From assembly GCF_014395785.1 (NCBI RefSeq), contig NZ_CP060713.1, positions 2,074,501 through 2,138,500 of the forward strand: DNA of 64,000 bases, written 5' to 3'. How positions within the stretch are numbered: the first letter of the stretch is position 1; each line of letters starts with the position of its first letter. The stretch comes from Nocardioides mesophilus. GTDB taxonomy: Bacteria > Actinomycetota > Actinomycetes > Propionibacteriales > Nocardioidaceae. This document shows, one piece after another, positions 23,024 through 57,392 of this stretch. A program made the position numbers and the translations under genes. Under the pieces are notes generated by a model. It worked only from the letters and a program-made list of their open reading frames with translations. It ran no database searches and was not told where the DNA came from.

Positions 23024-24513
23024 CACAGACTGCTCTCGTGCCAGGAGCGACCGTCGCGCTCGATGAGGGTGGTCGCGGCGCTGGGACCACTGGTGCCGGC
23101 GGGGTAGGGACGGGGGTGGTGGCGCGGGTCGGTCCAGGCCTGCAGGATCGGCTCGGTCCACTCCCAGGCGGCCTCGACCTCGTCGCGGCGCATGAACAGC
23201 GTCGGGTTGCCCCGGACCACGTCCATCAGCAGCCGCTCGTAGGCGTCGGGCGAGGAGGTCTGGAAGGCCTGCGCGTAGTTGAGGTCGAGCGAGACCGGTC
23301 GCAACCGGATGCCGCCGGGGCCCGGCTCCTTCGCGGTCAGGTGCAGCCGCATGCCCTCGTCGGGCTGGAGCCGGATCACCAGCCGGTTCGGCTCCTCGGT
23401 GCCCTCGCTGCCGGGGAACATCGGGTGCGGCACGTTCTTGAACGTCACCACGATCTCCGAGCAGCGCCGGTCCATGCGCTTGCCGGTGCGCAGGTAGAAC
23501 GGGACGCCGGCCCAGCGCCAGTTGTCGACGTGGGCCTTGATCGCGGCGAAGGTCTCGGTGCGGCTCTCCGGGAGGCCGACCTCCTCGACGTACGACGCGC
23601 CGGCCGCGCCGTCGACCAGGCCGGCGGCGTACTGCCCGGCGACGGTCAACGCGGTGACGTCCGCGCCGGTGATCGGCCGGAGCGCGCGCAGCACCTTGAG
23701 CTTCTCGTCGCGCACGTCCTCACGGTTGACGTACGTCGGCGGCTCCATGGCCACCAGGCAGAGCAGCTGCAGCAGGTGGTTCTGCACCATGTCGCGCAGG
23801 GCGCCGGAGCCGTCGTAGTACTCCCCGCGGCCGGCGACGCCCAGGGACTCCGCGACGGTGATCTGGACGTGGTCGATCCAGTGCGCGTTCCAGATCGGCT
23901 CGAGGAAGACGTTGGCGAAGCGCGTCACCAGCAGGTTCTGGACGCTCTCCTTGCCGAGGTAGTGGTCGATCCGGAAGATCTGCCGCTCCTCGAAGACCGC
24001 GCCCACGGCGTCGTGGATCGCCTCCGCGGAGGCGAGGTCGGTGCCGAGCGGCTTCTCGAGCACCACGCGCGAGTGCTCGCTGACCAGGCCCTGCTCGTGC
24101 AGCCGGTGGGAGACGGGACCGAACAGCGAGGGCGCGCAGGCCAGGTAGAAGACCCGGATGCGCTCGGGGTCGCAGCCGAGCAGCTCGACGACCGGGGGCC
24201 AGTCGGCGGGCTCGTCGAAGTCGAGGCTGATGTGGTGCAGCCGCTCGAGGAAGCGGTCGACGGAGCGCTCCTCGTGGGCGGAGGAGTCGACGAACCGGGC
24301 GAGCTCGCCGCGCACCTTGGCGCGGAAGCCCTGGTCGTCGAGGCCGGCCCGGGACAGCGCGACGACCCGGGTGTCGTCGGTGAGCTGGCCGGCCCGGTCG
24401 CGGAGGTAGAGGGAGGGTAGGAGCTTGCGCATCGCCAGGTCACCGGTGCCGCCGAGGACGACGAAGTCGCACGGGCTCACGGGCTGGGGAGCGGTGGTGG
24501 GTCGGGGGGTCAC
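23023..24513 (-). CDS. zwf: Glucose-6-phosphate 1-dehydrogenase
   Basis: This 496-residue protein has the N-terminal nucleotide-binding GGTGDLA (residues 21-27), the active-site RIDHYLGKE (181-189) and the conserved RTGKRMDRR segment. It oxidises glucose-6-phosphate to 6-phosphogluconolactone with NAD(P). The GTG at 24513 follows GGAGAAGCTC at ideal spacing; the open frame continues to 24660 but without protein-like sequence. It is the first gene of zwf-edd-eda. A 6-phosphogluconolactonase gene is not present in the operon and must be elsewhere or be bypassed by spontaneous hydrolysis. Confidence 0.93.
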
Positions 24514-24585
24514 GAGCTTCTCCAGGTGCGGCCAGGTGCGGAAGGTGTGCCGAGGGTCGGATCGCGACCGCGTCGGGCACTGAGT

Positions 24586-24623
24586 GGTCCACGCTAGGGG
24601 ACCTTCTGTGCTCTGGCAAGCAC
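24586..24623. promoter_or_regulatory. Candidate operator region between zwf operon and ROK gene
   Basis: The divergent control region holds two short perfect inverted repeats: GGTCC (24586-24590) with GGACC (24599-24603), and GTGCT (24608-24612) with AGCAC (24619-24623). Either could be bound by the ROK regulator encoded immediately to the right. The arms are only 5 bp, so chance is not excluded. Confidence 0.25.
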
Positions 24624-24695
24624 CACTTAGGTATGTTGGAAAGCATAAGATCTCCTTCACCTGCCCTTCACGCGGCGGATTGGTTGAATGACCCG

Positions 24696-25892
24696 ATGAG
24701 CTCCCCTCCGTACGCCGGTACGCCGCCGGTCGTGGCCGGCCCCGGCGACCTGCTGGACCTGATCCGGTCCGGCCGGGCCGGCACCCGCGCCGACCTGCGC
24801 CGGCTCACCGGGCTGTCCCGCACCGCGGTGTCCGCCCGGCTCGACGCCCTGGCCGGCCTTGGGCTCGTCCAGGAGGGCGGGACCGCGGAGTCCACCGGCG
24901 GCCGGCCCCCCGCCCGGCTCTCGTTCCACCGGCAGGCCGGGGTGGTGCTCGCCGTGGCGATCGGCCGGAGCCGGGTCCAGCTCGCCGTCTGCGACCTCAG
25001 CGGCGCGGTGCTCGCCGCCGCCGACGTCGACCAGGAGGTGGGAGCCGGCCCGGACCAGGTGATGCCCCGGGTGGTGGCGGTGCTCCGCGACCTGCTCGAC
25101 GAGGCCGGCCGCGGGGCCGGCGACGTCCGGGCCTTCGGGGTCAGCATCCCCGGCACGGTGGACCGCGACCGCGGCGTGAGCCACGACTCCCAGCTGATGA
25201 CGGGCTGGGACGGCGTACCGCTCTCGCGCTGGCTCACCGACCTGGCCGCGGCACCGGTGCTGGTCGACAACGACGCCGCCGTGCTGGCCCTCTCCGAGCA
25301 GGTCGACGGCCAGGAGGGGCGGGAGAACCTGCTGGCCCTCAAGGTCTCCACCGGTCTGGGGGCCGGGATCGTCGCGGACGGACGGCTGGTGCGCGGCGGT
25401 CGCGGGGCCGCCGGCGAGATCGGTCACGTGAAGACCGTCGCCGCCGAGGGACGGACCTGCCGCTGCGGCGAGGTCGGCTGCCTGGAGGCCGTCGCCGGGG
25501 GCTGGGCGCTGGTCGAGGCGATGCGCGAGCAGGGCCGCGAGGTCGGCCACATCCGGGACCTGGTGGCGCTGGCCGTCGAGGGGGACGCGGAGGCCCGCCG
25601 GCTGATCCGGGAGAGCGGCCGCCGCTACGGCGAGGTGCTCGGTGCAGTGGTGACGATCCTGAACCCCGACGTGCTGGTCATCGGCGGCGACGTGCTGCCG
25701 GCCTACGAGACGTTCGTGGCGGGGATGCGCGAGACGGTCTACGCCCAGGGCACCGCGCTGGCCACCAAGGACCTGCGGATCGAGCCGGCGCGGCACGGCG
25801 AGCAGGCCGGGCTGGTGGGCTGTGCCGCGATGGCGCTCGAGGAGATCCTCAACCCCCGCGCCGTGGACCTCGCCGTCTCCCGGGCGGACTGA
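24696..25892 (+). CDS. ROK family transcriptional regulator
   Basis: This 398-residue protein has an N-terminal winged helix (residues about 28-60, TRADLRRLTGLSRTAVSARLDAL) followed by a ROK sugar-kinase-like domain with the zinc motif CRCGEVGC (Cys255, Cys257, Cys262 with His244). ROK repressors sense sugars or sugar phosphates. It is transcribed divergently from zwf-edd-eda, and control of that operon by a glucose or gluconate metabolite is the natural reading (inference). I chose the ATG at 24696; an in-frame TTG/ATG upstream at 24633 would overlap the control region. Confidence 0.87.
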   Translation: MSSPPYAGTPPVVAGPGDLLDLIRSGRAGTRADLRRLTGLSRTAVSARLDALAGLGLVQEGGTAESTGGRPPARLSFHRQAGVVLAVAIGRSRVQLAVCDLSGAVLAAADVDQEVGAGPDQVMPRVVAVLRDLLDEAGRGAGDVRAFGVSIPGTVDRDRGVSHDSQLMTGWDGVPLSRWLTDLAAAPVLVDNDAAVLALSEQVDGQEGRENLLALKVSTGLGAGIVADGRLVRGGRGAAGEIGHVKTVAAEGRTCRCGEVGCLEAVAGGWALVEAMREQGREVGHIRDLVALAVEGDAEARRLIRESGRRYGEVLGAVVTILNPDVLVIGGDVLPAYETFVAGMRETVYAQGTALATKDLRIEPARHGEQAGLVGCAAMALEEILNPRAVDLAVSRAD

Positions 25893-25963
25893 GCCCTTCA
25901 CTCCGCCGACCCGCTGGGTCGGTCTCCTTCCCGACGGCGCTCCCCGCGGGTAGCGTCGAGGGG

Positions 25964-26560
25964 GTGCGGATGTTCGTGGCGCTGCCGCTCTCCGAGGCGG
26001 CGGTCGAGCACCTCCAGGAGTTCCTGGCCCCGCGCCAGGAGGCCGGCGCCGACCTGCGTTGGACCGTGACCGAGCAGTGGCACCTGACGCTGGCGTTCCT
26101 GCCCGACGTCGCCGATCGGCACCTCGACGAGCTCGAGGAGCGGCTGACCCGGGCGGCGCGCCGCCGTACCGCGGTCGAGGTGGCGCTCGCCGGAGGCGGT
26201 GCCTTCCCCGGCCCGTCGCGCGGGCGGGTGCTCTTCGCCGCCGTCGACGCGGGGGAGCGGACCGGGAGCCGGGCCGAGGAGCTGCGCCGGATGGCGACCG
26301 GGGCGCGGGCCGCCGCCGTGAAGTCCGGCATCGAGGTCGAGGGCGCCCGGTTCCACCCGCACGTCACGCTGGCCCGGGCCAGGCGTCCGACCGAGATGAC
26401 CCGCTGGATCCGGGTGCTGGAGGGCTACCGCGGACCCACCTGGTGCACCGAGCGCCTGGTGCTGGTCGAGTCCCACCTGGGGGAGGGGCCGCGGCGGCGT
26501 CCCCGCTACGAGATCCGGGCGGACTTCCCGCTGGGGGCCGGCGCCGAAACGCGGGCGTAA
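25964..26560 (+). CDS. thpR: RNA 2',3'-cyclic phosphodiesterase (2H superfamily)
   Basis: This 198-residue protein carries both HxT motifs of the 2H phosphoesterases: HLTL at residues 40-43 and HVTL near residue 133. The N-terminal RMFVALPLSEAAVEHL is typical of ThpR/LigT. It hydrolyses 2',3'-cyclic phosphate RNA ends and can ligate tRNA halves in vitro. The start is a GTG at 25964. It is preceded by the ROK gene and followed by an ACT-domain gene with 73 bases between them, so it probably has its own transcript. Confidence 0.88.
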   Translation: MRMFVALPLSEAAVEHLQEFLAPRQEAGADLRWTVTEQWHLTLAFLPDVADRHLDELEERLTRAARRRTAVEVALAGGGAFPGPSRGRVLFAAVDAGERTGSRAEELRRMATGARAAAVKSGIEVEGARFHPHVTLARARRPTEMTRWIRVLEGYRGPTWCTERLVLVESHLGEGPRRRPRYEIRADFPLGAGAETRA

Positions 26561-26633
26561 CCCCGCCGTGAGACGGTCTGACCGATAGGGTCCGGACCAG
26601 GACGACCCTCGTGCTGTGAAGGGAATGGGTGGC

Positions 26634-27278
26634 ATGCCGTTCTTGCTCCGTGTGGAGCTGCCGGACGTGCCCGGTTCGCTGGGTCGGGTGGCGACCGCGA
26701 TCGGTGAGGCCGGCGGTGACATCGAGGCCATCGAGATCGTCGAGCACCGTCGCGACGGCACCGCGGTCGACGACGTGCTCCTCGAGACCGCGCCCGGGAT
26801 CATGCCCGACTCGATCGTCTCGGCCTGCAACCAGCTCGACGGGGTGCAGGTGGTCTGGATCTCGCGGTACGCCGCCGGCGGCAACCTGTTCCTGGACCTC
26901 GAGGCCGTCGAGCAGCTGACCGAGTCGCCGGCCACGGCGCTCGACGAGCTCGTCGACCTGCTGCCGATCACGTTCCGCGCGGACTGGGCCATGCGGCTGC
27001 GGGCCGACGGCACCGGGGCGACCGTGCTGCACCGCACCTCCGCGGCCCCCGAGGTCGTGGTCGGGCTTCCGCAGTGGTTCGAGCTGGCGCAGGCCGCGCG
27101 CCTGGACCTGCCGCATGAGTGGACCCACCTCGACGGCACGCTGCTGGCCGGGGCACCGCTCGGCGACGACGCGCTGGTTCTGTTCGGCCGCCGCGGCGGT
27201 CCCGACGTGCTGGACTCCGAGCTGGCCCGGCTGCAGCACCTCGCCGCCCTGGCCGTCTCGATCGCCCGCGCCGGCTGA
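26634..27278 (+). CDS. ACT-domain-containing protein
   Basis: This 214-residue protein begins with an ACT domain (FLLRVELPDVPGSLGRVATAIGEAGGDIEAIEI, positions about 3-35), the fold that binds amino acids and regulates enzymes. The remaining 140 residues show no catalytic motif I recognise and could be a GAF-like or kinase-like sensor module. I chose the ATG at 26634, nine bases after a GAAGGGA site, over GTG 26616 and ATG 26625. No partner gene is adjacent. It is probably a metabolic sensor protein. Confidence 0.8.
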   Translation: MPFLLRVELPDVPGSLGRVATAIGEAGGDIEAIEIVEHRRDGTAVDDVLLETAPGIMPDSIVSACNQLDGVQVVWISRYAAGGNLFLDLEAVEQLTESPATALDELVDLLPITFRADWAMRLRADGTGATVLHRTSAAPEVVVGLPQWFELAQAARLDLPHEWTHLDGTLLAGAPLGDDALVLFGRRGGPDVLDSELARLQHLAALAVSIARAG

Positions 27279-27317
27279 GCCGGACCGCCGGGCACCGGGC
27301 CGGCGCGACGGGATGGG

Positions 27318-27758
27318 TCAGCGCGGCTCGGCGACGAAGACCGGGATCTCCCGGTCGGTCCGGCGCTGGTAGTCGGCGTAGTTGGGGAAGGCCGCGACCG
27401 CGCGCTCCCACCACTGCGCCTTCTCCTCGCCGGTCACGAGACGGACGGTCATGTCCTGGCGGACCGGACCGTCCTGGAGCTCGATCAGCGGGTGCGCCAC
27501 CAGGTTGTGGTACCAGGTCGGGTGCTTCGGCGCACCGCCCTGGGAGGCCACCAGGGCGTAGGCACCGTCGTGCTCGACCCGCATCAACGGGGTCTTGCGG
27601 ATCTTCCCGCTGCGGGCACCGAGCGAGGTCACCACCACCACGGGCAACCCGGTGTCGCGCAGCGTCGTGCCCGCGGTGCCACCGGAGCTCTCGTAGAGCT
27701 CGACCTGGTCGCGGACCCACTGCTCGGAGCTGGGGACGTACTCACCGGTGAGAGGCAT
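27318..27758 (-). CDS. Nitroreductase/deazaflavin (F420)-dependent oxidoreductase, Ddn family
   Basis: This 146-residue split-barrel protein shows the family hallmarks: [49 protein letters not shown] and the C-terminal [16 protein letters not shown]. Relatives use reduced coenzyme F420 to reduce quinones, nitroimidazoles or enones. F420 use is consistent with an actinobacterium. The ATG at 27758 gives the typical N-terminus. It is divergent from menB, 57 bases apart, and convergent with the ACT-domain gene. Confidence 0.9.
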
Positions 27759-27815
27759 AGCAGGACAACGACCTCCGGGCCCGGCTTGTTCCGCCTCTCG
27801 CCTAGATTGAGCGCC

Positions 27816-28745
27816 ATGTCCGACGACTCCGCCACCGCCCGGCCCGTGTCCGAGACCTTCGACCCCGCCGCCTGGCGGCAGGTCCCGGGCTTCGAGGACC
27901 TGACCGACCTGACCTACCACCGGGCGGTCGAGCACGGCACCGTGCGGATCGCCTTCGACCGGCCCGAGGTCCGCAACGCGTTCCGGCCGCACACGGTCGA
28001 CGAGCTGCTCCGGGTCCTCGAGCACGCGCGGACGACGAGCGACGTCGGCTGCGTGATCCTCACCGGCAACGGGCCCTCGGCCAAGGACGGCGGCTGGGCG
28101 TTCTGCTCGGGCGGGGACCAGCGGATCCGCGGCCGCGCCGGCTACCAGTACGCCGACGGTGAGACCGCGGACACGGTGGACAAGGCGAAGCTCGGCCGGC
28201 TGCACATCCTGGAGTGCCAGCGGCTGATCCGGTTCATGCCCAAGGTGGTGCTGTGCGTGGTGCCCGGCTGGGCGGCGGGCGGCGGCCACTCGCTGCACGT
28301 GGTCTCGGACCTGACGATCGCCTCCCGCGAGCACGCCCGGTTCAAGCAGACCGACGCCGACGTCGGCTCCTTCGACGGCGGGTTCGGCTCTGCGTACCTC
28401 GCCCGCCAGGTCGGCCAGAAGTTCGCCCGGGAGATCTTCTTCCTCGGTGACGAGTACACCGCGGAGGAGGCGCACCGGATGGGCATGGTGAACGCGGTCG
28501 TGGACCACGCCGACCTCGAGCGCACGGCGCTGGAGTGGGGCCGCAAGATCAACGGCAAGTCACCGACCGCGCAGCGGATGCTGAAGTACTCCTTCAACCT
28601 GATCGACGACGGGCTCGTCGGCCAGCAGCTCTTCGCCGGCGAGACGACCCGGCTCGCCTACATGACCGACGAGGCAGTCGAGGGGCGCGACGCGTTCCTG
28701 GAGAAGCGCGAGCCCGACTGGTCCGAGTTCCCCTGGTACTACTGA
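27816..28745 (+). CDS. menB: 1,4-Dihydroxy-2-naphthoyl-CoA synthase
   Basis: This 309-residue crotonase-family enzyme closes the second ring in menaquinone synthesis. Diagnostic MenB segments are present: the AFCSGGDQ oxyanion loop, the [23 protein letters not shown] core, [24 protein letters not shown] and the C-terminal [14 protein letters not shown]. No other men gene is in the window. The last 19 coding bases and the stop are repeated 2.56 kb downstream and form the left attachment site of an inserted element; the coding sequence itself is intact. Confidence 0.93.
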
Positions 28746-28746
28746 C
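28727..28746 (+). repeat. attL-like copy of the 20-bp direct repeat
   Basis: The repeat GTTCCCCTGGTACTACTGAC covers the last codons and stop of menB. It is identical to 31283-31302. Flanking bases differ on both sides, so 20 bp is the maximum identity. Confidence 0.8.
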
Positions 28747-28812
28747 GGACGCTCGGACGCGTCCACACCGCCCTAGGTGCACGCGCAGGCAAGTCTCCGC
28801 ACACCGGCGCAC

Positions 28813-28831
28813 TGTGACACCTCTGTGACAC
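28813..28831 (+). repeat. Candidate left arm-type integrase site
   Basis: The motif TGTGACACCT-CT-GTGACAC contains two GTGACAC half-sites in direct orientation. A near-identical motif occurs at 31215-31233 close to the other end of the element. Direct GTGACAC pairs near both attachment sites suggest arm-type binding sites for the lost integrase. Confidence 0.5.
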
Positions 28832-28933
28832 GGGCGGGGGGCGGTCCTGACCTCTCTTGCGAGAGGGTTGCAGGTGTCGATGGCGACGGAAATTTCCTCT
28901 GAATCGGGCAGATGGCCAATAGGGTCGCGTCGT

Positions 28934-29191
28934 ATGAAGGGAAATGTCCTCGCCGTTGCGTTAGCCATTCCGTTTTCGTTTTTCGCGGGGTGCTCGTCCG
29001 CGGACACCGCTGATCTCCCTGAGGTCGACTGGGGCGAATACGCGTCAGACGTGCAGGACCGGATCGACGGACTAGCCAACTCTGCTGACTGTGCGGGGCT
29101 TCAAACACAGTTCGACAACGCCGACGCGAACGGCAGTGTGGACCTGATGAGCTACATCGATGTCAAGCTCCGCGATGCAGGCTGCTACTGA
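28934..29191 (+). CDS. Small putative lipoprotein
   Basis: This 85-residue product has a basic start (MKGN), a hydrophobic core (VLAVALAIPFSFF) and a lipobox FAGC with the predicted lipidated Cys at about 20, followed by a short acidic domain with two further cysteines near the end (SADCAGL and DAGCY) that could pair. It is probably exported and membrane-anchored. I chose the ATG at 28934 since an upstream ATG (28880) adds non-signal sequence. It is the first gene in the integrated element. No function can be assigned. Confidence 0.65.
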   Translation: MKGNVLAVALAIPFSFFAGCSSADTADLPEVDWGEYASDVQDRIDGLANSADCAGLQTQFDNADANGSVDLMSYIDVKLRDAGCY

Positions 29192-29298
29192 CAGGGTGCG
29201 CCGCATCTTCCGCCGACGGCGATTCGGGGTACCGCGTCTGCGAATCTCGGCGGCTCAAAACGTCTCCCTCGGTCAGGCACATCCGTAATCTGGCGAAC

Positions 29299-29958
29299 GT
29301 GACGAGCGAACTTGGACGGCTGGTTGTCAGTGATCTGCGGTATTTGCAGAGGCAGTGGTCCAGCGTCGACCGGTTGGAGGAGGACAACCTGCGGCGAGAT
29401 TCGGCGACGCTGCGGCGACTATTGATCGACAACGGAAATGGTTTGCTTACGAATTACTGGAAGTCGCTCGGGCACAAGGGCCAGATCAAGGTCACCACGG
29501 TAGACATGAGGGCCTACCTCGAAGGCGTTGACTTGAAGGCGTTGCAGTTCGCAGGGGCAGGTGGCGCGAGGAATGGCGGGGCGCAAGTCTCAGCAACCTT
29601 GGTGAGCTCGAAGGTGCTGACCGAGGAGGAGATTAGAAATCGCTACGAGCGGGCGACCGATGGTCCACCGACGAGGACCTCAACCCTGTCAACGTTCCTC
29701 GATTCGACGGGTATTCGAGTCGCCGGCGTAGCAGTAAGCCGCCGTAACATCATTCAGTTCGTGGGCAATCGCCTTGGTGGGGTCCACTTCGACGAGACGC
29801 GCGGTCACGCGAAGGCGCACGTGGCAGAGCAGTTCGCCGCCTTGGATTCGGCAGTTGAGATGAAGGTGGCTGACTTGAATGCGATCTACTTCGAGTTGCT
29901 TTCAATCGGCCAGTCAGTGCTGGATTCGGAGCAGGTCCAAGAGTTGATGCTCGACTGA
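29299..29958 (+). CDS. Hypothetical protein in the integrated element
   Basis: This 219-residue protein starts with GTG at 29299. It has an Arg/Asp-rich helical N-terminus (SDLRYLQRQWSSVDRLEEDNLRRDSATLRRLL), a middle region with hydrophobic strands and a C-terminal segment with KAHVAEQFAALD. No transmembrane segment or catalytic motif is recognisable. The codon use is less GC-biased than neighbouring chromosome genes, consistent with foreign origin. The last 13 bases before its stop overlap the region where the integrase remnant reading frame is open. Function unknown; as cargo of a small element, a defence or regulatory role is possible but unsupported. Confidence 0.65.
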   Translation: MTSELGRLVVSDLRYLQRQWSSVDRLEEDNLRRDSATLRRLLIDNGNGLLTNYWKSLGHKGQIKVTTVDMRAYLEGVDLKALQFAGAGGARNGGAQVSATLVSSKVLTEEEIRNRYERATDGPPTRTSTLSTFLDSTGIRVAGVAVSRRNIIQFVGNRLGGVHFDETRGHAKAHVAEQFAALDSAVEMKVADLNAIYFELLSIGQSVLDSEQVQELMLD

Positions 29959-29971
29959 CCACCGGGCAGCG

Positions 29972-30310
29972 ACTCGGCCTGGCGCACAGTCGGCCGACGG
30001 CACCGTCTTCACAGGGCAGACGACTCGCAGGCGGCCGTACGCGCATGAGGTGTATTACCGCGCCATCGCCGCGGCTGTCGTCAAGGCGGGGCTGCCCGTC
30101 GGAACCTCATCGCACGACTTGCGCCACCATTACGTCTCCGTGCTGCTGGACGCTGGCGAGTCCGTCGTGACCGTTGCCGAGCGAATTGGCGACACACCCG
30201 CGATGGTGTTGGCCGTATACGGTCACATGATGCCGAACACGGAGGATCGCACCCGGCGCGCGGTCGATTACGCGTGGACCAAAGCAAGCAGGAGTCTCGT
30301 CACCCAGTAA
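29972..30310 (+). pseudogene. Tyrosine-family integrase, C-terminal remnant
   Basis: The translated frame contains the C-terminal half of a phage-type integrase: ADGTVFTGQTTRRRPYAHEVYYRA, then the second catalytic box SSHDLRHHY (His-x-x-Arg) and the last box AVYGHMMP, with the nucleophilic Tyr of YGHMM. Only about 112 residues remain of a protein normally near 380; the N-terminal arm-binding domain and the first catalytic Arg are absent. The nearest in-frame GTG is at 30050. The left boundary is uncertain because the frame stays open into the preceding gene. It is the likely source of the element's integration, now inactive. Confidence 0.8.
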
Positions 30311-30355
30311 ATCGACCCACCCATGCTTCGCCGGGCGCGGGAAATGCCTGGCAAG

Positions 30356-31081
30356 ATGACGCTCGTGTTGCTCTGCTATGTCGACGAATCCAACCACGGT
30401 GACTTCCATGGTTTTGCTGCCCTGCTCGCGGACGAGCACGCGACTAAGGCTCTCACCGACGACTTGAACCGGATTATGAGCCAGGCGTCAGTCGACTTCG
30501 GCATACCAAGGACGACCGAATTCCACGCGCATCCGATGTTCCACGGCAAGGACGAGTGGAGCAACGTCGGTGCACGGGCGCGAGTTGGCCTCTTCTTCAA
30601 GGTGGTCAACGCCATCACCTCAGCGGATGTCACGATGATTCTTCGGTCGGTTGACAACCGCCTGCTTAAGGCGCGGCAGGCGCGCGAGAACTACCGCGTT
30701 CATTTTCCGGCTGAGCAGGTCTGCTTTCAGCACATCCTCCAGCGGGCGAATCGAGTGGCAAAGCGGCAAGACACCTACGCCCTCATGATCGCGGACAACC
30801 GTAGCGATCGCGAGCGGCACAGAGAGCGCTTTGCCACTTACCAAACGTCTGGCACACCTGGCGTCTACATGCATACGACTCTCGAGCGCCTACTCGATAC
30901 CGTGCACTTCGCTCCCAGCCATCAATCCCGCATGCTTCAGGCCGCTGACATGCTCGCGTTCATCTACCGAAGGCGTATGACGGTCTTCGAGCAGGACATC
31001 CGGTCCGAGCAAGCCATGGCGAAGTTATGGGGGCGCATCATCGACTGCGGGAAGCTCTGTGACGTGGGTTCTTGGCCGTAG
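30356..31081 (+). CDS. DUF3800 domain-containing protein
   Basis: This protein of about 241 residues opens with the DUF3800 signature LLCYVDESNHGDF and later has MIADNRSDRERHRERF and QAADMLAFIYRRR, where the first and last acidic residues match the RNase H-like acidic set of the family. DUF3800 proteins are predicted nucleases that turn up in mobile elements and near defence genes. In-frame ATGs at 30323 and 30344 are alternatives; none has a clear ribosome-binding site, and I prefer 30356 because the domain begins within a few residues. It sits between the integrase remnant and the right attachment site. The function is predicted only. Confidence 0.78.
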   Translation: MTLVLLCYVDESNHGDFHGFAALLADEHATKALTDDLNRIMSQASVDFGIPRTTEFHAHPMFHGKDEWSNVGARARVGLFFKVVNAITSADVTMILRSVDNRLLKARQARENYRVHFPAEQVCFQHILQRANRVAKRQDTYALMIADNRSDRERHRERFATYQTSGTPGVYMHTTLERLLDTVHFAPSHQSRMLQAADMLAFIYRRRMTVFEQDIRSEQAMAKLWGRIIDCGKLCDVGSWP

Positions 31082-31089
31082 CGCACGAC

Positions 31090-31110
31090 AGCCCCGTCAT
31101 GGACGGGGCT
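31090..31110 (+). terminator. Hairpin after the DUF3800 gene
   Basis: AGCCCCGTC and GACGGGGCT form a perfect 9-bp stem with a 3-base loop, starting nine bases after the DUF3800 stop. There is no T-rich tail, as is common in high-GC actinobacteria. It is a likely terminator. Confidence 0.6.
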
Positions 31111-31214
31111 GAAGGCGGTGCGGGCGGCGCTTGCGCTGCGGCCTGCAATCCTGAATGTAGCAGCGATGCCCGACAGAATCACGAGCCCCCTCCCCGGAGC
31201 CTTTAGTGAGTTGT

Positions 31215-31233
31215 TGTGACACCTGGGTGACAC
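31215..31233 (+). repeat. Candidate right arm-type integrase site
   Basis: TGTGACACCT-GG-GTGACAC repeats the left-end motif at 28813-28831 with only the two central bases changed. It lies 50 bases inside the right 20-bp repeat. Confidence 0.5.
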
Positions 31234-31282
31234 AGGGCCGCCCTACACCGTCCCGTGAGTGCGGATCTGCCTGGTTGTCGCC

Positions 31283-31302
31283 GTTCCCCTGGTACTACTG
31301 AC
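31283..31302 (+). repeat. attR-like copy of the 20-bp direct repeat
   Basis: This second copy of GTTCCCCTGGTACTACTGAC, identical to the menB end, marks the right boundary of the inserted element. No menB coding sequence is present upstream of it, as expected for a duplicated attachment core. Confidence 0.8.
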
Positions 31303-31405
31303 CTGACGCGTTGCGCAGGTCGCCGCCACGGAGCAAGGAACCGTTGTGCTCGCCAGCTGGTGGAGACATCGGCGAGACAGGGAGCCGTGGTGTGTGTATC
31401 GTTCT

Positions 31406-31425
31406 TCGATAACATCGATTATCGA
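31406..31425. promoter_or_regulatory. Inverted-repeat operator upstream of the DUF2975 gene
   Basis: TCGATAA (31406-31412) and TTATCGA (31419-31425) form a perfect 7-bp inverted repeat around CATCGA, ending 15 bases before the ATG at 31441. The AT-rich content stands out in this genome. The XRE regulator encoded in the same operon is the likely binder, giving autoregulation (inference). Confidence 0.6.
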
Positions 31426-31440
31426 TAAACCGAGGGCGAC

Positions 31441-32136
31441 ATGACCACTTCCAGCGTCGATAGAAGAGCCCGCATGCGTGTGGTCGAGGGGGTGATCCTC
31501 GTCGTCGTGCTGATCAGTCTTGGCGCGGGGTTGTCGATGCTCCTGGGGCCGAACGGCCTCCGACTGCTCAACTTCGAGCCGCAGTGGCCGGTGGTCGGGG
31601 CGAGCCAGTACGAGATGTCGGTGGAGACGCAGTTCGCAGAAGGTGCTGGGGTCCTGGTGCGGGGTGCGCCGACGTGGCGCGACACGGAGACGGGAACCGT
31701 GGACGCCCGCACCGGCGGCAGGCCGGTGGAGGTGACCGGGCCGTTCTTCGGCCAGGTCGGCTTCCCGGCTCCCTCGCTGGCGCAACGGCTGCTGTGGGTG
31801 TCGTGGCGTGCCTCGGCCCCGTTGCTTGCCGCCGGAGCGCTGTGGTTGGTCCTGCTCATCGTTCGCTCTGTGCGAGAGGGTGATCCGTTCACGGAGGCCA
31901 ACGCACGCCGGTTTCGCTTGCTCGCGGGGGTGGTGGCGGTCGGCGGCACGCTCATCTCCGTCCTGGGAGCCGTGCTGCGCCGCTGGCTGCTGGACAGCTC
32001 CGGCGCGAGCAACATCGTGGCGCGGGACTGGTCGATCTCCTGGGTGCCGGTGCTGGCCGGCCTGCTGATCGCTGTCCTCGCCCAGGTGTGGGGCCACGGG
32101 GTGGCGATGAGGGACGAGCTAGAGGACGTGGTGTAG
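31441..32136 (+). CDS. DUF2975-like membrane protein
   Basis: This 231-residue protein has four predicted membrane helices: about 15-37, 118-143, 157-177 and 200-220. An extracytoplasmic loop of 80 residues lies between the first two. A conserved-looking EGDPFTEANARRFRLLAGV stretch before helix three is typical of DUF2975 proteins. The next gene, two bases after its stop, is a small XRE regulator, the arrangement usually found with DUF2975. The pair is probably a membrane component with its own repressor. The role is unknown. Confidence 0.82.
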   Translation: MTTSSVDRRARMRVVEGVILVVVLISLGAGLSMLLGPNGLRLLNFEPQWPVVGASQYEMSVETQFAEGAGVLVRGAPTWRDTETGTVDARTGGRPVEVTGPFFGQVGFPAPSLAQRLLWVSWRASAPLLAAGALWLVLLIVRSVREGDPFTEANARRFRLLAGVVAVGGTLISVLGAVLRRWLLDSSGASNIVARDWSISWVPVLAGLLIAVLAQVWGHGVAMRDELEDVV

Positions 32137-32138
32137 GC

Positions 32139-32360
32139 GTGCCGGTCGAGGAGCCGCACCGCATCGTGTGCCGGCTGGACAGCCTCCTGGAGACGCGCGG
32201 GATGACCCTGACAGAGCTCGCCCGCCGGGTGGACGTGACTCTCGCGAACCTCTCCAAGCTCAAGAACAACCGAGCAAAGGCGGTTCGCTTCTCCACGCTG
32301 ACCGCGATCTGCCGCGAGCTCCAGTGCCAACCCGGCGACCTCCTCAACCTGGAGGAATGA
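32139..32360 (+). CDS. XRE family (HTH_26) transcriptional regulator
   Basis: This 73-residue single-domain Cro/CI-type helix-turn-helix protein contains LTELARRVDVTLANLSKLKNNRAKAVRFSTLTAICRELQCQPGDLL, the YozG-like HTH_26 pattern. The GTG at 32139 lies two bases after the DUF2975 stop, so the two are co-translated. It probably binds the TCGATAA inverted repeat in front of the operon and represses it. Confidence 0.85.
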   Translation: MPVEEPHRIVCRLDSLLETRGMTLTELARRVDVTLANLSKLKNNRAKAVRFSTLTAICRELQCQPGDLLNLEE

Positions 32361-32427
32361 AGCAGGGGAGCCGGTCTCGACCTGCAATCGGAGCCTCCGG
32401 GTGGCGTCGCTCAGGTACCTTGCGCCG

Positions 32428-32724
32428 ATGAGCGGATCATCGGAGGACGCCGGCCTGACCACCACCCAGCTGTTTCGCCTGGCGTGGGTTCTCGGTCTGG
32501 CCGCCGTCGTCTCCTGCGGAGTTCTCGGCCGGCACGCCGCGGACCACGATCGGGTGCAGTCGGTGCAGCTCGTCTGGCTCGCCGTCGGTGTCGTCGCGGC
32601 TGTCTTCTCGGGCTGCTGCGCTGTGCTCGTGGGGGTGAGGTCCGCGGAGGCGCGCCTCAACTCGAGTCCGGCTCCTCCGAGCGCGGCGCAATCCCCAGTA
32701 TCTCGTCGATCTCAGCCTGAGTGA
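32428..32724 (+). CDS. Small two-helix membrane protein of unknown function
   Basis: This 98-residue protein has two hydrophobic segments (LAWVLGLAAVVSCGVLG at about 16-32 and VQLVWLAVGVVAAVFSGCCAVLVGV at about 45-70) separated by a His/Asp-containing loop, with a proline/serine-rich C-terminal tail. The ATG at 32428 is favoured over a GTG at 32401. Its 3' end overlaps the 3' end of a minus-strand gene by 68 bases. No family is recognised. Confidence 0.6.
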   Translation: MSGSSEDAGLTTTQLFRLAWVLGLAAVVSCGVLGRHAADHDRVQSVQLVWLAVGVVAAVFSGCCAVLVGVRSAEARLNSSPAPPSAAQSPVSRRSQPE

Positions 32725-32842
32725 GCGGTCCGGCTGCCGCGGACGCCCGCAGGACCAGCTCGATGGTGAGGTCGGCCTCGTCGAGCCGCTCGGCGTCGAA
32801 CGGCAGCTCAGCGAGGTCGAAGTCGAACGGATCGAGATCCAT
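32657..32842 (-). CDS. Small acidic hypothetical protein
   Basis: This 61-residue highly acidic protein (MDLDPFDFDLAELPFD start; LTQAEIDEILGI near the end) has real-protein composition, with a helix that looks like a short binding motif, and an ATG start. It overlaps the end of the plus-strand membrane-protein gene tail to tail. Both frames look coding in the overlap. It stands alone, and no family is recognised. Confidence 0.55.
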   Translation of the reverse strand: MDLDPFDFDLAELPFDAERLDEADLTIELVLRASAAAGPLTQAEIDEILGIAPRSEEPDSS

Positions 32843-32963
32843 GTCGTTTCACCAGCCAAGGTGCGCAGGAATCGTGGCGGTCCCGTGACTGGAAGCCCGA
32901 TACAACCAGCACTCTTTCCCGGTGCCGCGTATCGAAACGTGCGGGGCCGGCTCTTCTGTCAGG

Positions 32964-33698
32964 ATGAAGACCGTGACCCCGTCCGGCCTCCGGCCCGCTC
33001 TCGGCCGGATCTCGAGCATATGGCGCTACCCGGTCAAATCGCTCGTCGGTGAGGAAATCTTGTCCGTGCACGTCGACGAGCGGGGCCTGCAGGGCGACCG
33101 GCTGTGGGCGGTGCGCGACCCGGACGGCAGGCTCGGCAGCGGCAAGTCCACGCGCCGGTTCAGCAAGATGGACGGCCTCCTCCAGCTCGCGGCGCGGGCG
33201 GACGGCGACGTACCCGCCCTCTCGTTCCCCGACGGACGGGTGCTGCGCGGCGACGACCCGGCGGTCCACGCGGCGCTCTCCGCGCACCTCGGGCGCCCGG
33301 TCGCCCTCGCCCGCGAGCAGGATCTCTCGCACTTCGACGAGGGGCCAGTGCACCTGGTGACGACCGCCAGCCTGCGGGCCCTGGAGCAGGGACAGGGTGC
33401 GGTCGTGGAGCCGCGCCGGCTGCGCCCCAACCTGGTGCTCGAGACCGACGCCGGTCCGGCCTTCCTGGAGGACGACTGGGTGGGACGCCAGGTGGAGATC
33501 GGCGAGCGGCTGGTCCTGGCGATCCGGGCGCCGATGCCGCGCTGCGTGATGATCACGCTCCCGCAGGCCGAGCTCGCGGCCGAGCCGCACCTGCTCAAGA
33601 CGCTCGGCGAGCTCAACGACGCGCAGATCGGGGTGGTCGCCGACGTCGTCGTGCCCGGCCCGGTCGCAGTCGGCGACCAGGCGCGCCTCGTGGGCTGA
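32964..33698 (+). CDS. MOSC domain-containing protein
   Basis: This 244-residue protein has an N-terminal MOSC beta-barrel domain (GRISSIWRYPVKSLVGEEI, GLQGDRLWAVRDPDG) and a C-terminal MOSC domain with LRPNLVLETD and MPRCVMITLPQ, where the conserved Cys (about 194) is the family's predicted metal/sulfur-binding residue. Relatives handle molybdenum-cofactor sulfur or reduce N-hydroxylated compounds (YcbX, mARC). The ATG at 32964 is the best start. No molybdopterin genes are nearby. Confidence 0.85.
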   Translation: MKTVTPSGLRPALGRISSIWRYPVKSLVGEEILSVHVDERGLQGDRLWAVRDPDGRLGSGKSTRRFSKMDGLLQLAARADGDVPALSFPDGRVLRGDDPAVHAALSAHLGRPVALAREQDLSHFDEGPVHLVTTASLRALEQGQGAVVEPRRLRPNLVLETDAGPAFLEDDWVGRQVEIGERLVLAIRAPMPRCVMITLPQAELAAEPHLLKTLGELNDAQIGVVADVVVPGPVAVGDQARLVG

Positions 33699-33713
33699 GT
33701 GTCGTGGTCGGGA

Positions 33714-34592
33714 TCAGGCGCCGGCGGCGTCGGAGCACTGGTCGCCCCGGGTGCTGGCGACGAAGTCCCTGACCACGTCGGCGAACCGGTCCGGCTCGTC
33801 GAGGTGCGGGAAGTGACCGGCGCCCTGGAAGAGCTCGACGCGACACTGCGACATCGCCTGCTGGGCGCTGATCGCGTGCCAGGCCGGGATCATCCGGTCC
33901 CGGGAGCCCCAGACGATCAAGGTCGGGACCGGGCACGCGTCGGGCAGGTAGTCGTGGGCGCTGACGCTCTGGCCGCCCGGGTCGATGACCGAGCGGGTGG
34001 TGGCCAGGAAGGCACGCCGGCTCTCCCCGTCACCCAGCGAGGTGAAGCCCTGCCAGATCGCGGTGATGTCGGAGCCGGGCTTCCAGCCGACCTTGGACAG
34101 CAACCGTCCGGCGCTCTCCGCGCGGCCCCGCACCCAGCGCGACGCGATCACCGGAAGGACGTACTCCGCGCCCGGGAGGGTCGCGGAGCGCAGGATCGGG
34201 TTCACCTCGCGGCCCAGGCCCCCGCTGGCCACGAGGACGAGGCGCTCCACCCGCTCGGGGAAGAGGTAGTAGAACTCCATCGCGATGCCGCCGCCCAAGG
34301 AGTGCCCGACCAGGGTGACCCGGTCGATGCCCAGCCGGTCCAGCAGGTCGCGGAGCGTGGCGGCGTGGCCGCCGAGCGAGTAGTCGCCCATCGGCTTGGC
34401 CGAGTGTCCGTGACCGAACAGGTCCGGCACCAGCACCCGGTGGTTGTCGTCGAGCCGGTCGATGAGGTGCGACCAGTTGCGGTGCGAGCCGAGGATCCCG
34501 TGGATGAACAGCAGCACCTCGCCCTTGCCGCTGTCGAGGTAGGAGAGCTCGTGGCCGTGCAGCGTCACGTGACGGACGGTGAACGGCTCCAT
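33714..34592 (-). CDS. Alpha/beta fold hydrolase
   Basis: This 292-residue protein has the oxyanion region FIHGILGSHRNW, nucleophile elbow GHSLGGG (Ser about 97), acid residue in WGSRDRMIP and the catalytic His in GAGHFPHLDEP. It is an esterase or C-C-bond hydrolase of the common single-domain alpha/beta family. The ATG at 34592, preceded by GAGGAGAGG, is favoured over an upstream ATG at 34619. It is convergent with the MOSC gene. The substrate cannot be inferred. Confidence 0.87.
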   Translation of the reverse strand: MEPFTVRHVTLHGHELSYLDSGKGEVLLFIHGILGSHRNWSHLIDRLDDNHRVLVPDLFGHGHSAKPMGDYSLGGHAATLRDLLDRLGIDRVTLVGHSLGGGIAMEFYYLFPERVERLVLVASGGLGREVNPILRSATLPGAEYVLPVIASRWVRGRAESAGRLLSKVGWKPGSDITAIWQGFTSLGDGESRRAFLATTRSVIDPGGQSVSAHDYLPDACPVPTLIVWGSRDRMIPAWHAISAQQAMSQCRVELFQGAGHFPHLDEPDRFADVVRDFVASTRGDQCSDAAGA

Positions 34593-34751
34593 GACCTCTC
34601 CTCGACCAGCCTCGGACAACCTCGGACACCTCGGCCCACGTGGTGTCGCCGGACTCGCTCGACTACCAACTTACCCGACAGTAGCCTGCCCGTCCCTCCG
34701 TCGACGAGTCCGTCCGGGCCCCGCTGCCGGGCACCTGGCAGAGTCGACCTC

Positions 34752-35381
34752 ATGACCGACGAGCCGCTCACCCGCTGGCAGCAGCTCTCCCAGGGCCTCA
34801 CCGGCGACGACTACCAGGCCCGCTTCGCCGAGCTCGCGGCCCGCGGCGAGGACGTGCACGGCGAGGCGTCCTTCGTGTCCACCCTGGTCGGGCCGGGCGC
34901 CCGGCTGCTGGACGCCGGCTGCGGCACCGGCCGGGTCGCCATCCGGCTGGCCGAGCTCGGCTACGACGTGGTCGGCGTCGACGTGGAGGAGTCGATGCTC
35001 GCGGTGGCCCGCCGTGAGCGGCCGGCCACCACCTGGCTGCGCGGTGATCTCGCCGACCTGCCCGCCGGGGTGGTCGAGCGGGCGCCGTACGACCTGGTGC
35101 TGATGGCCGGCAACGTCGTCCCGCTGCTCGCGCCCGGCACCCTGCCGGCGGCGGTCGCCGGCCTGGTCGCCACGCTGCGCCCCGACGGCCTGCTGGTGGC
35201 GGGCTTCGGTCTGGACCGCCTGCACCTGCCCCAGGGCTGCCCGGTGACCCCTCTGGAGGAGTACGACGAGGCCGCGGAGGCCTCCGGCCTGCGCCCGGTG
35301 GACCGGTTCTCGACGTGGCAGGCGGCGCCGTACGCCGAGCGTGGCGGCTATGTCGTCCGGGTGCACCGGCGCGACCGCTGA
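34752..35381 (+). CDS. Class I SAM-dependent methyltransferase
   Basis: This 209-residue protein has the SAM-binding motif I LLDAGCGTGRVAIRLAELGYDVVGVD (Rossmann glycine loop at about 53-64 and acidic residue at 75) and the motif DLVLMAGNVVPLL. The N-terminal EPLTRWQQLSQG is found in small actinobacterial methyltransferases. The substrate is unknown. It lies 66 bases before pntAA and might share its transcript only weakly. Confidence 0.85.
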   Translation: MTDEPLTRWQQLSQGLTGDDYQARFAELAARGEDVHGEASFVSTLVGPGARLLDAGCGTGRVAIRLAELGYDVVGVDVEESMLAVARRERPATTWLRGDLADLPAGVVERAPYDLVLMAGNVVPLLAPGTLPAAVAGLVATLRPDGLLVAGFGLDRLHLPQGCPVTPLEEYDEAAEASGLRPVDRFSTWQAAPYAERGGYVVRVHRRDR

Positions 35382-35447
35382 CCTTCGGCCTGTGACGCGC
35401 GTCGCAAATGACGCGCGTCCCCGGCCCGGTGCCCTACGTTGCCAAGC

Positions 35448-55118: not shown

Positions 55119-57392
55119 ATGGACGTGGAAGCACCGCTCGCCCTCTACCGCCGCTACCGGCCCGAGACCTTCGCCGAGGTCATCGGCCAGGATCACGTGA
55201 CCACGCCGCTGCGGGCGGCGCTGAAGAACAACCGGGTCCACCACGCCTACCTGTTCTCCGGACCCCGTGGCTGCGGCAAGACCACGAGCGCCCGCATCCT
55301 CGCGCGCTGCCTCAACTGCGAGCAGGGACCGACCGACACCCCCTGCGGGGTCTGCCAGTCCTGCGTGGACCTGGCGCGCGGCGGCCCGGGCTCCATCGAC
55401 GTCATCGAGATCGACGCGGCCAGCCACGGCGGTGTCGACGACGCCCGGGACCTGCGCGAGCGCGCCTTCTTCGCCCCGGTCAGCAGCCGCTACAAGATCT
55501 ACATCATCGACGAGGCCCACATGGTCTCGCCGGCCGGCTTCAACGCGCTGCTGAAGCTGGTCGAGGAGCCCCCCGAGCACATCAAGTTCGTCTTCGCCAC
55601 GACCGAGCCGGAGAAGGTCATCGGCACGATCCGTTCGCGGACCCACCACTACCCGTTCCGGCTGATCCCGCCGCGCACCCTGTCGGACTACCTCCAGGAG
55701 CTGTGCGACCAGGAGCAGGTGCAGGTGGAGCCGGCCGCACTGCCGCTGGTCGTGCGCGCGGGCGGCGGGTCCGCCCGGGACACGCTCTCGGTGCTCGACC
55801 AGCTGATCGGCGGCGCCGGTCCCGAGGGCGTCACCTACGAGCTCACCACCGGGCTGCTGGGCTTCACCCCCGAGACCCTGCTCGACGAGGTCGTCGACGC
55901 GTTCGCGGCCGACGACGCAGGCACCGTCTTCGGCGTGGTCGACAAGGTGATCGAGACCGGCCAGGATCCCCGCCGGTTCACCGAGGACCTGCTGCGCCGG
56001 CTGCGCGACCTCCTGATCATCGCCGCGGTGCCGGACGCCCCGGCCACCGGCCTGATCGACCTGCCGCAGGACCAGGCCGAGCGGCTCGTCGCCCAGGCCG
56101 CCCGCTTCGGCCGCGCCGACCTCAGCCGCGCCGCCGACCTGGTCGCGGCCGGGCTCACCGAGCTCAAGGGCGCGACCGCGCCGCGGCTGCTGCTCGAGCT
56201 CATCTGCGCCCGCGTGCTGCTGCCGGGCGCCGACCACGGCACCGCCGGGGTGATGGCCCGCCTGGACCGGATCGAGAAGCGGATGGCGATCGAGGGCACC
56301 CCCTCGGCGGCGCTGCCCGCGTCGGGTGCGGCCGCTCCGGCACCGGCCCGGCGCGAGGATGCCGGCGCCGGCAGCGAGGGTCGCTCCGCCGCCGCCGCCA
56401 CCCGTCGGCCGGAGGCCCCGACCCGGGAGGCCACGCAGTCGCCGGCCGCCGCGCACCAGCCGGCGCCGCAGGCGCCGGCGGCCTCGCCTGCGGTCTCTGC
56501 GGCCCCGCAGGAGGCCTGGCCGACCGCCACGACTCCCGGGGCCGACCGCCAGGCCGCGGAGGGCCGCCAGCAGACCGAGGAGGACCGTCCGCAGACCGAG
56601 GAGGACCGTCCGCAGACCGAGGAGGACCGTCCGCAGGCCCAGGACCAGGCGCCGGCCGCGGTCCCGCCGGCCGCGGAGCCTGCTCCGACGTCCGACCGGC
56701 CCGCCGCCGAGGCGGTCCAGCCGGCGGGACACCCCGCGCAGCCCGCTCCGCAGGGGCAGGCCGCTGCGCACGGTCTCGGCCTGGTCGAGGTGCGCCGGCT
56801 GTGGCCGGACATCCTCGACGCGGTCAAGCTCAAGCGGCGCTACACCTGGATCCTGCTCAGCCAGAACGGCCAGGTGACCGCCGTCGACGAGAAGACGCTG
56901 ACCGTCGCGCTCGTGAACGCCGGCGCCCGCAACTCCTTCAGCAGCGGCGGCAGCGAGGAGATCCTGCGCCAGGCCTGCATCGACGTGGTCGGCCACGACT
57001 GGCGGATCGAGGCGATCGTCGACCCGACCGCGGAGCCGGGCGCCGGCGGGCCGATGACGATCCGCACCCATGACACCCGGCCGGTGGAGAGTGCCGCCCC
57101 GCAGCCGGGAGCCCCCGCGTCGGCCGGCCCCCCGCCGCCGGGTGACCAGGTCCCTGCCGCCGAGCCGGAGCCGCCGCAGCGCAGGCCCGTCGACCCGTCC
57201 GCCGTCGCGTCGGCCCGCGAGGCGATCCAGGACACCCGTCACCCCGGGGAGCAGCGCGCTGCCGCCACCCCCTCGGTCTCCGACGACGACGCCCACCGCG
57301 ACGACCCCGACGCCGACGACGACCTCGGCGGGACCCAGCTCCTGCAGCGCGAGCTCGGGGCGAGCATCATCGAAGAGATCCCGCACAGCTGA
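55119..57392 (+). CDS. dnaX: DNA polymerase III subunits gamma and tau
   Basis: This 757-residue clamp-loader protein has Walker A GPRGCGKTT (48-56), a four-cysteine zinc module (Cys64, Cys67, Cys76, Cys79, plus Cys82), DEAH in YIIDEAHM, the sensor-1 FATTEPEK and SRTHHYPFRL. A long Ala/Pro/Glu-rich linker (about 400-560) precedes the C-terminal tau region (GLVEVRRLWPDILDAVKLKRRYTWILL). The linker has a 21-bp triplicate repeat at 56571-56633 encoding QTEEDRP. The ATG at 55119 is chosen; a GTG at 55095 and one at 55125 are alternatives. No A-rich slippery site for a gamma frameshift is visible. Confidence 0.93.
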   Translation: MDVEAPLALYRRYRPETFAEVIGQDHVTTPLRAALKNNRVHHAYLFSGPRGCGKTTSARILARCLNCEQGPTDTPCGVCQSCVDLARGGPGSIDVIEIDAASHGGVDDARDLRERAFFAPVSSRYKIYIIDEAHMVSPAGFNALLKLVEEPPEHIKFVFATTEPEKVIGTIRSRTHHYPFRLIPPRTLSDYLQELCDQEQVQVEPAALPLVVRAGGGSARDTLSVLDQLIGGAGPEGVTYELTTGLLGFTPETLLDEVVDAFAADDAGTVFGVVDKVIETGQDPRRFTEDLLRRLRDLLIIAAVPDAPATGLIDLPQDQAERLVAQAARFGRADLSRAADLVAAGLTELKGATAPRLLLELICARVLLPGADHGTAGVMARLDRIEKRMAIEGTPSAALPASGAAAPAPARREDAGAGSEGRSAAAATRRPEAPTREATQSPAAAHQPAPQAPAASPAVSAAPQEAWPTATTPGADRQAAEGRQQTEEDRPQTEEDRPQTEEDRPQAQDQAPAAVPPAAEPAPTSDRPAAEAVQPAGHPAQPAPQGQAAAHGLGLVEVRRLWPDILDAVKLKRRYTWILLSQNGQVTAVDEKTLTVALVNAGARNSFSSGGSEEILRQACIDVVGHDWRIEAIVDPTAEPGAGGPMTIRTHDTRPVESAAPQPGAPASAGPPPPGDQVPAAEPEPPQRRPVDPSAVASAREAIQDTRHPGEQRAAATPSVSDDDAHRDDPDADDDLGGTQLLQRELGASIIEEIPHS
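56571..56633 (+). repeat. 21-bp tandem repeat in the dnaX linker
   Basis: Three perfect consecutive copies of a 21-bp unit beginning CAGACCGAGGAGGACC occupy 56571-56591, 56592-56612 and 56613-56633, encoding QTEEDRP each time. It is in frame and extends the acidic linker of DnaX. Confidence 0.9.

Follow-up and report, generated by a model that had tools for sequence, protein, structure and literature searches.

What has been inserted behind menB in Nocardioides mesophilus, and how did it come to lie there? The window analysed here is a stretch of 64,000 bp (RefSeq assembly GCF_014395785.1, contig NZ_CP060713.1, positions 2,074,501 to 2,138,500 of the forward strand), and coordinates refer to it unless stated otherwise. 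Within it, a first-pass annotation made from the letters alone had pointed to a small integrated element bounded by a repeat of the 3' end of menB. This 2.56-kb segment, referred to here as element A, is very probably a decayed, non-autonomous element of the cis-mobilizable element (CIME) type, integrated at menB via tyrosine-integrase recombination. The features of menB and of element A are listed below.

27816..28745, + strand: menB (1,4-dihydroxy-2-naphthoyl-CoA synthase), the target gene, left whole (NF006186, 585.8 bits, cut-off 378; TIGR01929, 420 bits, cut-off 342.7)
28727..28746, + strand: left attachment (att) core (attL), the native menB tail, exact 20-bp repeat
28747..31302, no strand: element A, 2.56-kb CIME-like element, core-bounded, GC content 0.612, no blastn match in the menB loci of six genus kin
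28813..28831, + strand: left arm-type site, class III, TGTGACACCTCTGTGACAC, from a motif search
28934..29191, + strand: small open reading frame (ORF) with a lipobox-like N-terminus (our own reading), without a family match at 0.001 (PHROGs, Pfam, NCBIfam and PADLOC)
29299..29958, + strand: ORF with a weak match in PHROGs to phrog_7805 (unknown function), 4.1e-5
29960..30310, + strand: tyrosine-integrase remnant, part of the catalytic domain only (phrog_1, 1.7e-8; PF00589, 22.7 bits, below the cut-off of 27.1)
30323..31081, + strand: DUF3800 gene, cargo (PF12686, 50.8 bits, cut-off 21; 4e-13)
31215..31233, + strand: right arm-type site, class III, TGTGACACCTGGGTGACAC, from a motif search
31283..31302, + strand: second att core, junction of element A and the neighbouring element, exact 20-bp repeat

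The sequence GTTCCCCTGGTACTACTGAC forms an exact 20-bp direct repeat at 28727-28746 and 31283-31302 (spacing 2556 bp), and the first copy supplies the final codons and stop of menB. The repeat is, as first described, exact, and with up to 3 mismatches allowed its two copies are the only ones in the 4.49-Mb genome (reversed-pattern control, 1); an 18-bp version of the menB tail finds two extra genomic places, with 3 mismatches each. The window holds 22 repeated 20-mers and, among the 10 listed, the menB-tail repeat is one. The other nine fall in a tandem array at 56570, where a 21-bp unit is repeated over 56570-56636. The core common to the window and its relatives is CCCCTGGTACTACTGA. Most element-side tail copies across the family read GCTTCCCC, and variation on the menB side falls within the first codon and at the base preceding it, so that the crossover would be located somewhere within CCCCTGGTACTACTGA.

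Inside the repeats, TGTGACACCTNNGTGACAC is found without mismatch at both arm-type sites, 66 bp in from the left repeat and 49 bp in from the right one. At up to 3 mismatches it has 3 matches in the window, compared with 0.11 expected in 64 kb, the third overlapping the second on the opposite strand. At up to 1 mismatch, 28813-28831 and 31215-31233 are the sole matches in the genome. The motifs that had been seen near both ends are a real pair, and their reading as arm sites is supported by two other paired-arm classes that occupy nearly fixed places in relatives (see below).

The lower GC content reported between the repeats was also borne out (0.612 for element A against 0.735 for 24000-28700), as was the gene content, namely an integrase remnant, a DUF3800 gene and two genes without a known function, one lipoprotein-like and one with the weak PHROGs match. 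The remnant keeps HDLRH and the Tyr in AVYGHM, with IGD in place of the usual LGH (our own reading), and is without an arm-binding or core-binding domain. Among the relatives of it listed from 341 genomes of the family (Nocardioidaceae), none is above 52% identity. The protein encoded at 29299 has relatives at 28-32% in 2 of the 340 other family genomes (G248 and G173), the one in G248 lying 1.6 Mb away from the menB tail of that genome. No relaxase or coupling-protein family was found in the four ORFs of element A, which thus combines three features of a CIME: att sites at both ends, an integrase reduced to a C-terminal remnant, and no conjugation or mobilization family.

Integration into the 3' end of a protein gene had been described as less common than integration at tRNA genes. 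Within the family the menB site proved to be recurrent, and not exceptional. At least one menB-tail match with up to 3 mismatches is present in 269 of the 341 genomes, and 41 genomes (own genome included; manual row count) have at least two tails on the same strand of a single contig, no more than about 110 kb apart. Tail positions were listed up to genome G167, and later genomes were re-searched where there were at least two same-strand hits (29 genomes). Adjacent tails are 86 bp to more than 50 kb apart. The loci of 36 of these 41 genomes were read (G169, G212, G222, G227 and G282 were left out, and the G201 locus was assessed through the corresponding contig of L117), and menB stands at the first tail in 35. 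In the exception, G277 (L163, G277:C288), two menB-like tails lie 86 bp apart with no menB in the 7.5 kb examined, a spacing that recalls the microCIMEs of 130-220 bp in Streptococcus salivarius (PMC7563491).

For closer comparison, 60 stretches (L numbers) were selected because they have repeated, exact or near-exact tails or come from genus kin; only the 341-genome counts, and not the frequencies among these stretches, are population frequencies. At many occupied sites TCTGGCGCGTTTGCGCAGGTCAG or a variant of it stands right behind the core. The left-end pattern TGGTACTACTGA-N(8-16)-GCAGGTC was found, at menB or elsewhere, in 47 of the 341 genomes with a reversed control of 0 on both strands. 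In named records, the exact left-end pattern occurs in 20 stretches, mostly from Nocardioides and Marmoricola, with two on one N. ferulae contig. Outside the family it was found in Nostocoides jenkinsii, where in strain Ben 74 (Intrasporangiaceae; L123, 3750-6597 in menB orientation) the menB site is occupied, with class-I-like arms and an integrase of the L074 type (82%; arm classes and integrase types are described below). It is also present in a metagenome-assembled genome labelled Propionibacterium, whose contig begins at the tail and leaves menB out of view. Mobile DNA appears to dock repeatedly at the menB tail.

The related elements carry paired direct repeats at both ends, GTGGCA...GTGGCA in class I and GTCCGC...GTCCGC in class II. 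In a strict paired-motif test of 38 distinct core-bounded elements, 16 had the same class at both ends, none had different classes, 15 had a signal at one end and 7 at neither, and 0 of the 15 sites taken as empty gave a signal. A looser single-motif rule applied to the same elements (3 duplicates dropped) gave 23 with both ends, 0 mixed, 11 with one end and 4 with none. The strict recount was made because the loose rule also fires on single motifs in DNA behind elements (e.g. L057 at 4270). Class I arms lie at core+58 to +60 on the left and core-120 to -127 on the right (-125 in 13 of 18), and class II arms at +58 to +70 (+59 in 7 of 10) and -138 to -148. Adjacent elements in arrays may differ in arm class, as in L061, L165, L167 and L171.

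Left arm class goes with integrase lineage (Fisher p 2.8e-5): class II with the L065 type in 13 of 14 distinct loci and class I with the L074 type in all 8. These counts take in the two query loci and leave out elements without a left arm, namely L056, L168 and L158. The one exception, L073, was kept in the count; it is assigned to L074 by the bit-score rule, whereas identity favours the L065 type (71-86% versus 57-73%). Between the lineages (four class II integrases against one of class I, with domain limits set by hand from the alignment), identity is 29-38% in the N-terminal ~50 residues, 60-67% in the core-binding domain and 62% in the catalytic domain. For the N-domain AlphaFold predicts three strands followed by a helix, the fold with which such integrases bind their arms, at a predicted local distance difference test score (pLDDT) of ~80; the model is weak overall (mean pLDDT 52.8, 5 sequences) and only the N-terminal 40 residues were used. 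Judged by these sequences, the two integrase lineages share one core and differ in arms. We read the TGTGACAC pairs of the window as a third arm code, a reading best supported by the pairing of arm class and integrase lineage.

The DNA to the right of element A bears on how the site was filled, and its features are listed here.

31290..31321, + strand: core and left-end (P') motif of a putative second, older menB element, TGGTACTACTGA-N11-GCGCAGGTC (the pattern counted above in 47 of 341 genomes)
31303..34751, no strand: DNA without a blastn match in the menB loci of kin
31441-32136: DUF2975 membrane protein gene, protein in 0 of 6 genus kin
32139-32360: HTH_26 one-domain regulator, directly after the DUF2975 gene
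32922-33698: MOSC gene, protein in 2 of 6 genus kin at 56-58%
33714-34619: alpha/beta hydrolase gene
34752..35381, + strand: S-adenosylmethionine (SAM) methyltransferase, with a G326 homologue that begins 17 bp after the stop codon of menB (empty-site order)

The sequence from 31303 opens with CCTGACGCGTTGCGCAGGTC, the left-end motif of the other arm classes, and has no recognisable arms. Because this motif is seen behind the menB tail of other genomes, we read the locus as an array in which the DNA from 31303 onward would be an older, more decayed menB element distal to menB, and element A a later, menB-proximal arrival. The MOSC and hydrolase genes may be ordinary chromosome (GC content 0.717 for 32900-34751), and native gene order resumes near 34752. 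It had been proposed that the empty site would read menB followed by the sequence from 31303. This is not what was found in the six genus kin, where the tail was sought at up to 3 mismatches and where a homologue of the methyltransferase at 34752 (G325, G326), or of the gene at about 35415-35424 (G329, G330), is present behind menB instead. Five of the six (G325, G326, G327, G329 and G330) have menB with one tail, which has two mismatches in G330, and no left-end motif. In G326 the methyltransferase follows directly, and compared with this genome the window has about 6 kb, rather than 2.56 kb, inserted between menB and the methyltransferase. In the sixth, G328, the tail is a variant with no menB before it and a gene of the 35415-35424 type ~0.5 kb behind; it may mark where an element ends on its right, the menB side being on a different contig. 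In G329 (L054, about 2150-2520 in menB orientation) several near-identical repeated stretches (GGTTTCGAGGCCTCGGCTAGCGCCTCGGCACCTCAACCAGCG...) occupy part of the interval from menB to the next conserved gene.

The single tails of kin, the full-length integrases enclosed by the same cores in relatives and the repeated tails elsewhere in the family sustain the earlier proposals that the repeats are att cores and that the 3' end of menB is the attachment site. In the sequence of events that we propose, a tyrosine integrase would have recombined the menB-tail core on a circular form of element A with the native 3' end of menB, the tail copy brought by the element leaving menB whole. The integrase would have bound the TGTGACAC arms by its N-terminal domain and the core by its other domains. 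Element A probably landed, by accretion, at the core nearest to menB, when the site was already occupied by an older menB element, and the left end of that older element would remain legible at 31303; a tandem arrangement with a second left-end motif there is compatible with accretion and cis-mobilization. With its integrase lost, element A would be movable only by the integrase of another element, acting in trans or from a newcomer accreting at menB. That element A has moved at all is something we infer.

Several observations weigh against parts of this interpretation. No class III arm pair was found in the other family genomes among the 341, and the single 1-mismatch matches in two of them have no menB tail within 1.5 kb. 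The geometry of class III also differs from that of classes I and II, with arms at core+83 on the left and core-71 on the right. The link between arms and integrases is supported for classes I and II only, and in L158, where a right arm of class I stands without a left one, the L065 type gives the best score for the integrase pieces although their identity to L074 is higher. The order in kin is not uniform. The methyltransferase is directly behind menB in G326 alone; 2.4 kb of other DNA separates the two genes in G325; a homologue of window 35415-35424 lies ~0.2-0.6 kb behind menB in G329 and G330, where the methyltransferase is absent; and the G327 contig stops 1.6 kb behind menB with no match there. 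No core with up to 4 mismatches that could be the right end of the older element was found to its right within the window. Finally, element A has no relaxase remnant, so its origin may lie in an integrative and mobilizable element (IME), in a phage or in another island.

Relatives of element A were sought more widely. No close intact sibling was found, using the class III arm pattern in the 341 genomes and the integrase remnant and 29299 protein in phages and the same genomes. In viral contigs the arm pattern gave 2 hits, neither with menB nor with matches to three integrase queries. No intact class III parent was found in the 341 genomes, and the class I and II relatives are IME-like. When the proteins of element A (remnant excluded) and of 31441-34619 were compared with the selected loci, there was no match within any menB element; apart from the two relatives of the 29299 protein, the sole match was an Abhydrolase in L086, which counts among the sites regarded as empty.

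Bounded elements of more than 4 kb have an integrase match in 11 of 16 cases, full-length in L065, L066, L068, L156 and L165. All three annotated large elements (L065, L165 and L156) include a TrwC relaxase-helicase, which we take to be of the MobF type, the model match being partial in L156. L065 also encodes an HTH_17 protein, a type I restriction system and a Phage_integrase protein, and L156 an MmeI-like enzyme. No mating-pair apparatus was detected among the 10 large-element proteins scanned, a subset of their ORFs. With their own integrase and relaxase, the large menB elements appear IME-like. In 20 small elements (67 of 73 ORFs, called by our own GC-frame heuristic, entered the family scan), the families found include Unstab_antitox (9), ParE (6), Fic (4), DUF3885 (4), AbiEii (3), AbiEi (3), integrase pieces (3), PIN (2) and Phd/YefM (2). 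As a control, 62 ORFs located behind menB at 14 sites regarded as empty were scanned, and the first 25 of 85 families included none of those just named and no toxin-antitoxin (TA) or Abi family.

This cargo invites a different account, in which the small menB elements, element A included, are maintained att-bounded cassettes that move in trans, using the integrases of menB elements already resident or newly arriving, and build arrays guarded by TA pairs. Among the 22 distinct bounded elements of up to 4 kb (loose rule), both arms are present in 11, the right arm alone in 7, the left arm alone in 1 and neither in 3; TA and Abi families are frequent in the cargo; and in 9 of the 18 class I elements in which the right arm was found (22 examined) the last gene, mostly toxin-like by appearance, ends 8-23 bp from that arm. 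However, in the other 9 this distance is 36-200 bp, the left arm has been lost in many small elements, and integrase pieces remain in L056, L062, L158 and L159, as simple deletion would leave. Element A itself has no recognised TA pair, and any movement is at most inferred from sequence. We consider this account unlikely. A wider picture is equally unlikely, namely that the menB tail is a dock shared by several arm systems, at which small cassettes without an integrase are collected, exchanged and kept as an array, many of them with a gene for addiction or defence set against one arm site. This would be an integron-like use of classical integrase att sites, with the window element as a member with a private arm code. 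An integron integrase identity for the remnant was tested and rejected (30 bits, cut-off 265), although the test is weak as the remnant is a fragment.

Descent from a prophage or phage satellite that used menB is less probable still. The integrase remnant and one ORF match PHROGs, and the best phage match to the remnant is the integrase of Rhodococcus phage Sleepyhead (36.5%). However, no phage structural or packaging family is present in the four ORFs (PHROGs), no relative of the L065-type integrase at 60% identity or more was found in phages, and TrwC relaxases are found in the three annotated large relatives. The 16-bp core also occurs in 15 viral contigs, which lack a match to menB or to a menB-type integrase and look like chance hits. 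A relative of the L065-type integrase at 60% or more was not found in plasmids either. The view of the repeats as an artefact of chance or duplication, and of the genes as ordinary low-GC chromosome, has practically nothing in its favour beyond the general occurrence of short repeats; it has against it the lack of a third 20-bp copy at up to 3 mismatches in 4.49 Mb, the paired arms, the insert-free site in kin and the repeated tails in 40 other family genomes. Identity as an actinomycete integrative and conjugative element (AICE), a type defined by an FtsK-like TraB and a replication initiator, was rejected, as neither was found in the four ORFs. A decayed CIME-type element remains the account that we prefer.

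The genome of N. mesophilus has 8 Phage_integrase matches (6 above the cut-off) and one TrwC. No helper integrase for element A was found among them, since over long stretches their identity to the menB types does not exceed 28%. At G000:C1:2198684-2199219, outside the window, a tyrosine integrase is split over two frames, and a TrwC relaxase (2235294-2236427) lies 36 kb away in a 1266-aa open frame. Together they are possibly a separate integrative and conjugative element (ICE) or IME.

The first-pass annotation knew of no described element using menB, and no paper naming menB as an attachment site was found in full-text searches of open-licence literature; island databases such as TIGER may contain unnamed cases. 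The word menB is absent from the main text of PMC5704250 and PMC12884075, and in the part of PMC2909200 that mentions it the subject is biosynthesis, not integration. The elements reveal a recurrent protein-gene attachment site in one actinobacterial family, the named finds being mostly from Nocardioides. Their full-length integrases, cores and arms are possible tools for site-specific insertion in poorly tractable actinobacteria. With one core, several arm codes and an arm-binding domain that is the most divergent, they also offer a natural experiment on integrase modularity. Because many small elements carry TA or Abi genes, the menB tail is a predictable place to seek defence and addiction genes.

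Among known systems, integron gene cassettes are likewise arrays of small TA-bearing units added at one site, but in the menB elements the core is a copy of a host-gene tail and paired arm repeats are present at both ends. The Int structures 6emy, 6emz, 6en0 and 2kiw, presumably those of Tn1549 and Tn916, are among the closest solved by sequence to the menB integrases, which, unlike the Tn1549/Tn916 type, are apparently specific for the menB tail. L065, L165 and L156 have a tyrosine integrase and a relaxase (TrwC), L065 an HTH_17 protein, and L065 and L156 restriction-modification cargo, in common with canonical IMEs. According to a 2017 review, which names a single IME from actinobacteria, neither MobF nor MobH is encoded by any known canonical IME (PMC5704250). 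If the large menB elements are truly IMEs, their TrwC is of a relaxase type not found there at that time. The nearest parallel to element A is provided by the CIMEs accreted with ICEs and IMEs at the 3' ends of fda, rpsI, rpmG and rplL in S. salivarius (PMC7563491, PMC5704250). These are att-bounded remnants of 1.2-13 kb with cargo and no integration or transfer genes, lined up in tandem where a protein gene ends, and the most decayed elements lie farthest from the target gene (PMC7563491), the same order as the one proposed for the window. The menB elements differ in their target, in being actinobacterial, in having two arm classes and the third of the window on one core, and in the closeness of the last gene to the right arm in half of the class I elements measured. 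Accretion of CIMEs and IMEs at the 3' end of a protein gene is already known; what is new is the menB site, the set of arm codes on one core, TrwC in IME-like elements, and genes set against the right arm.

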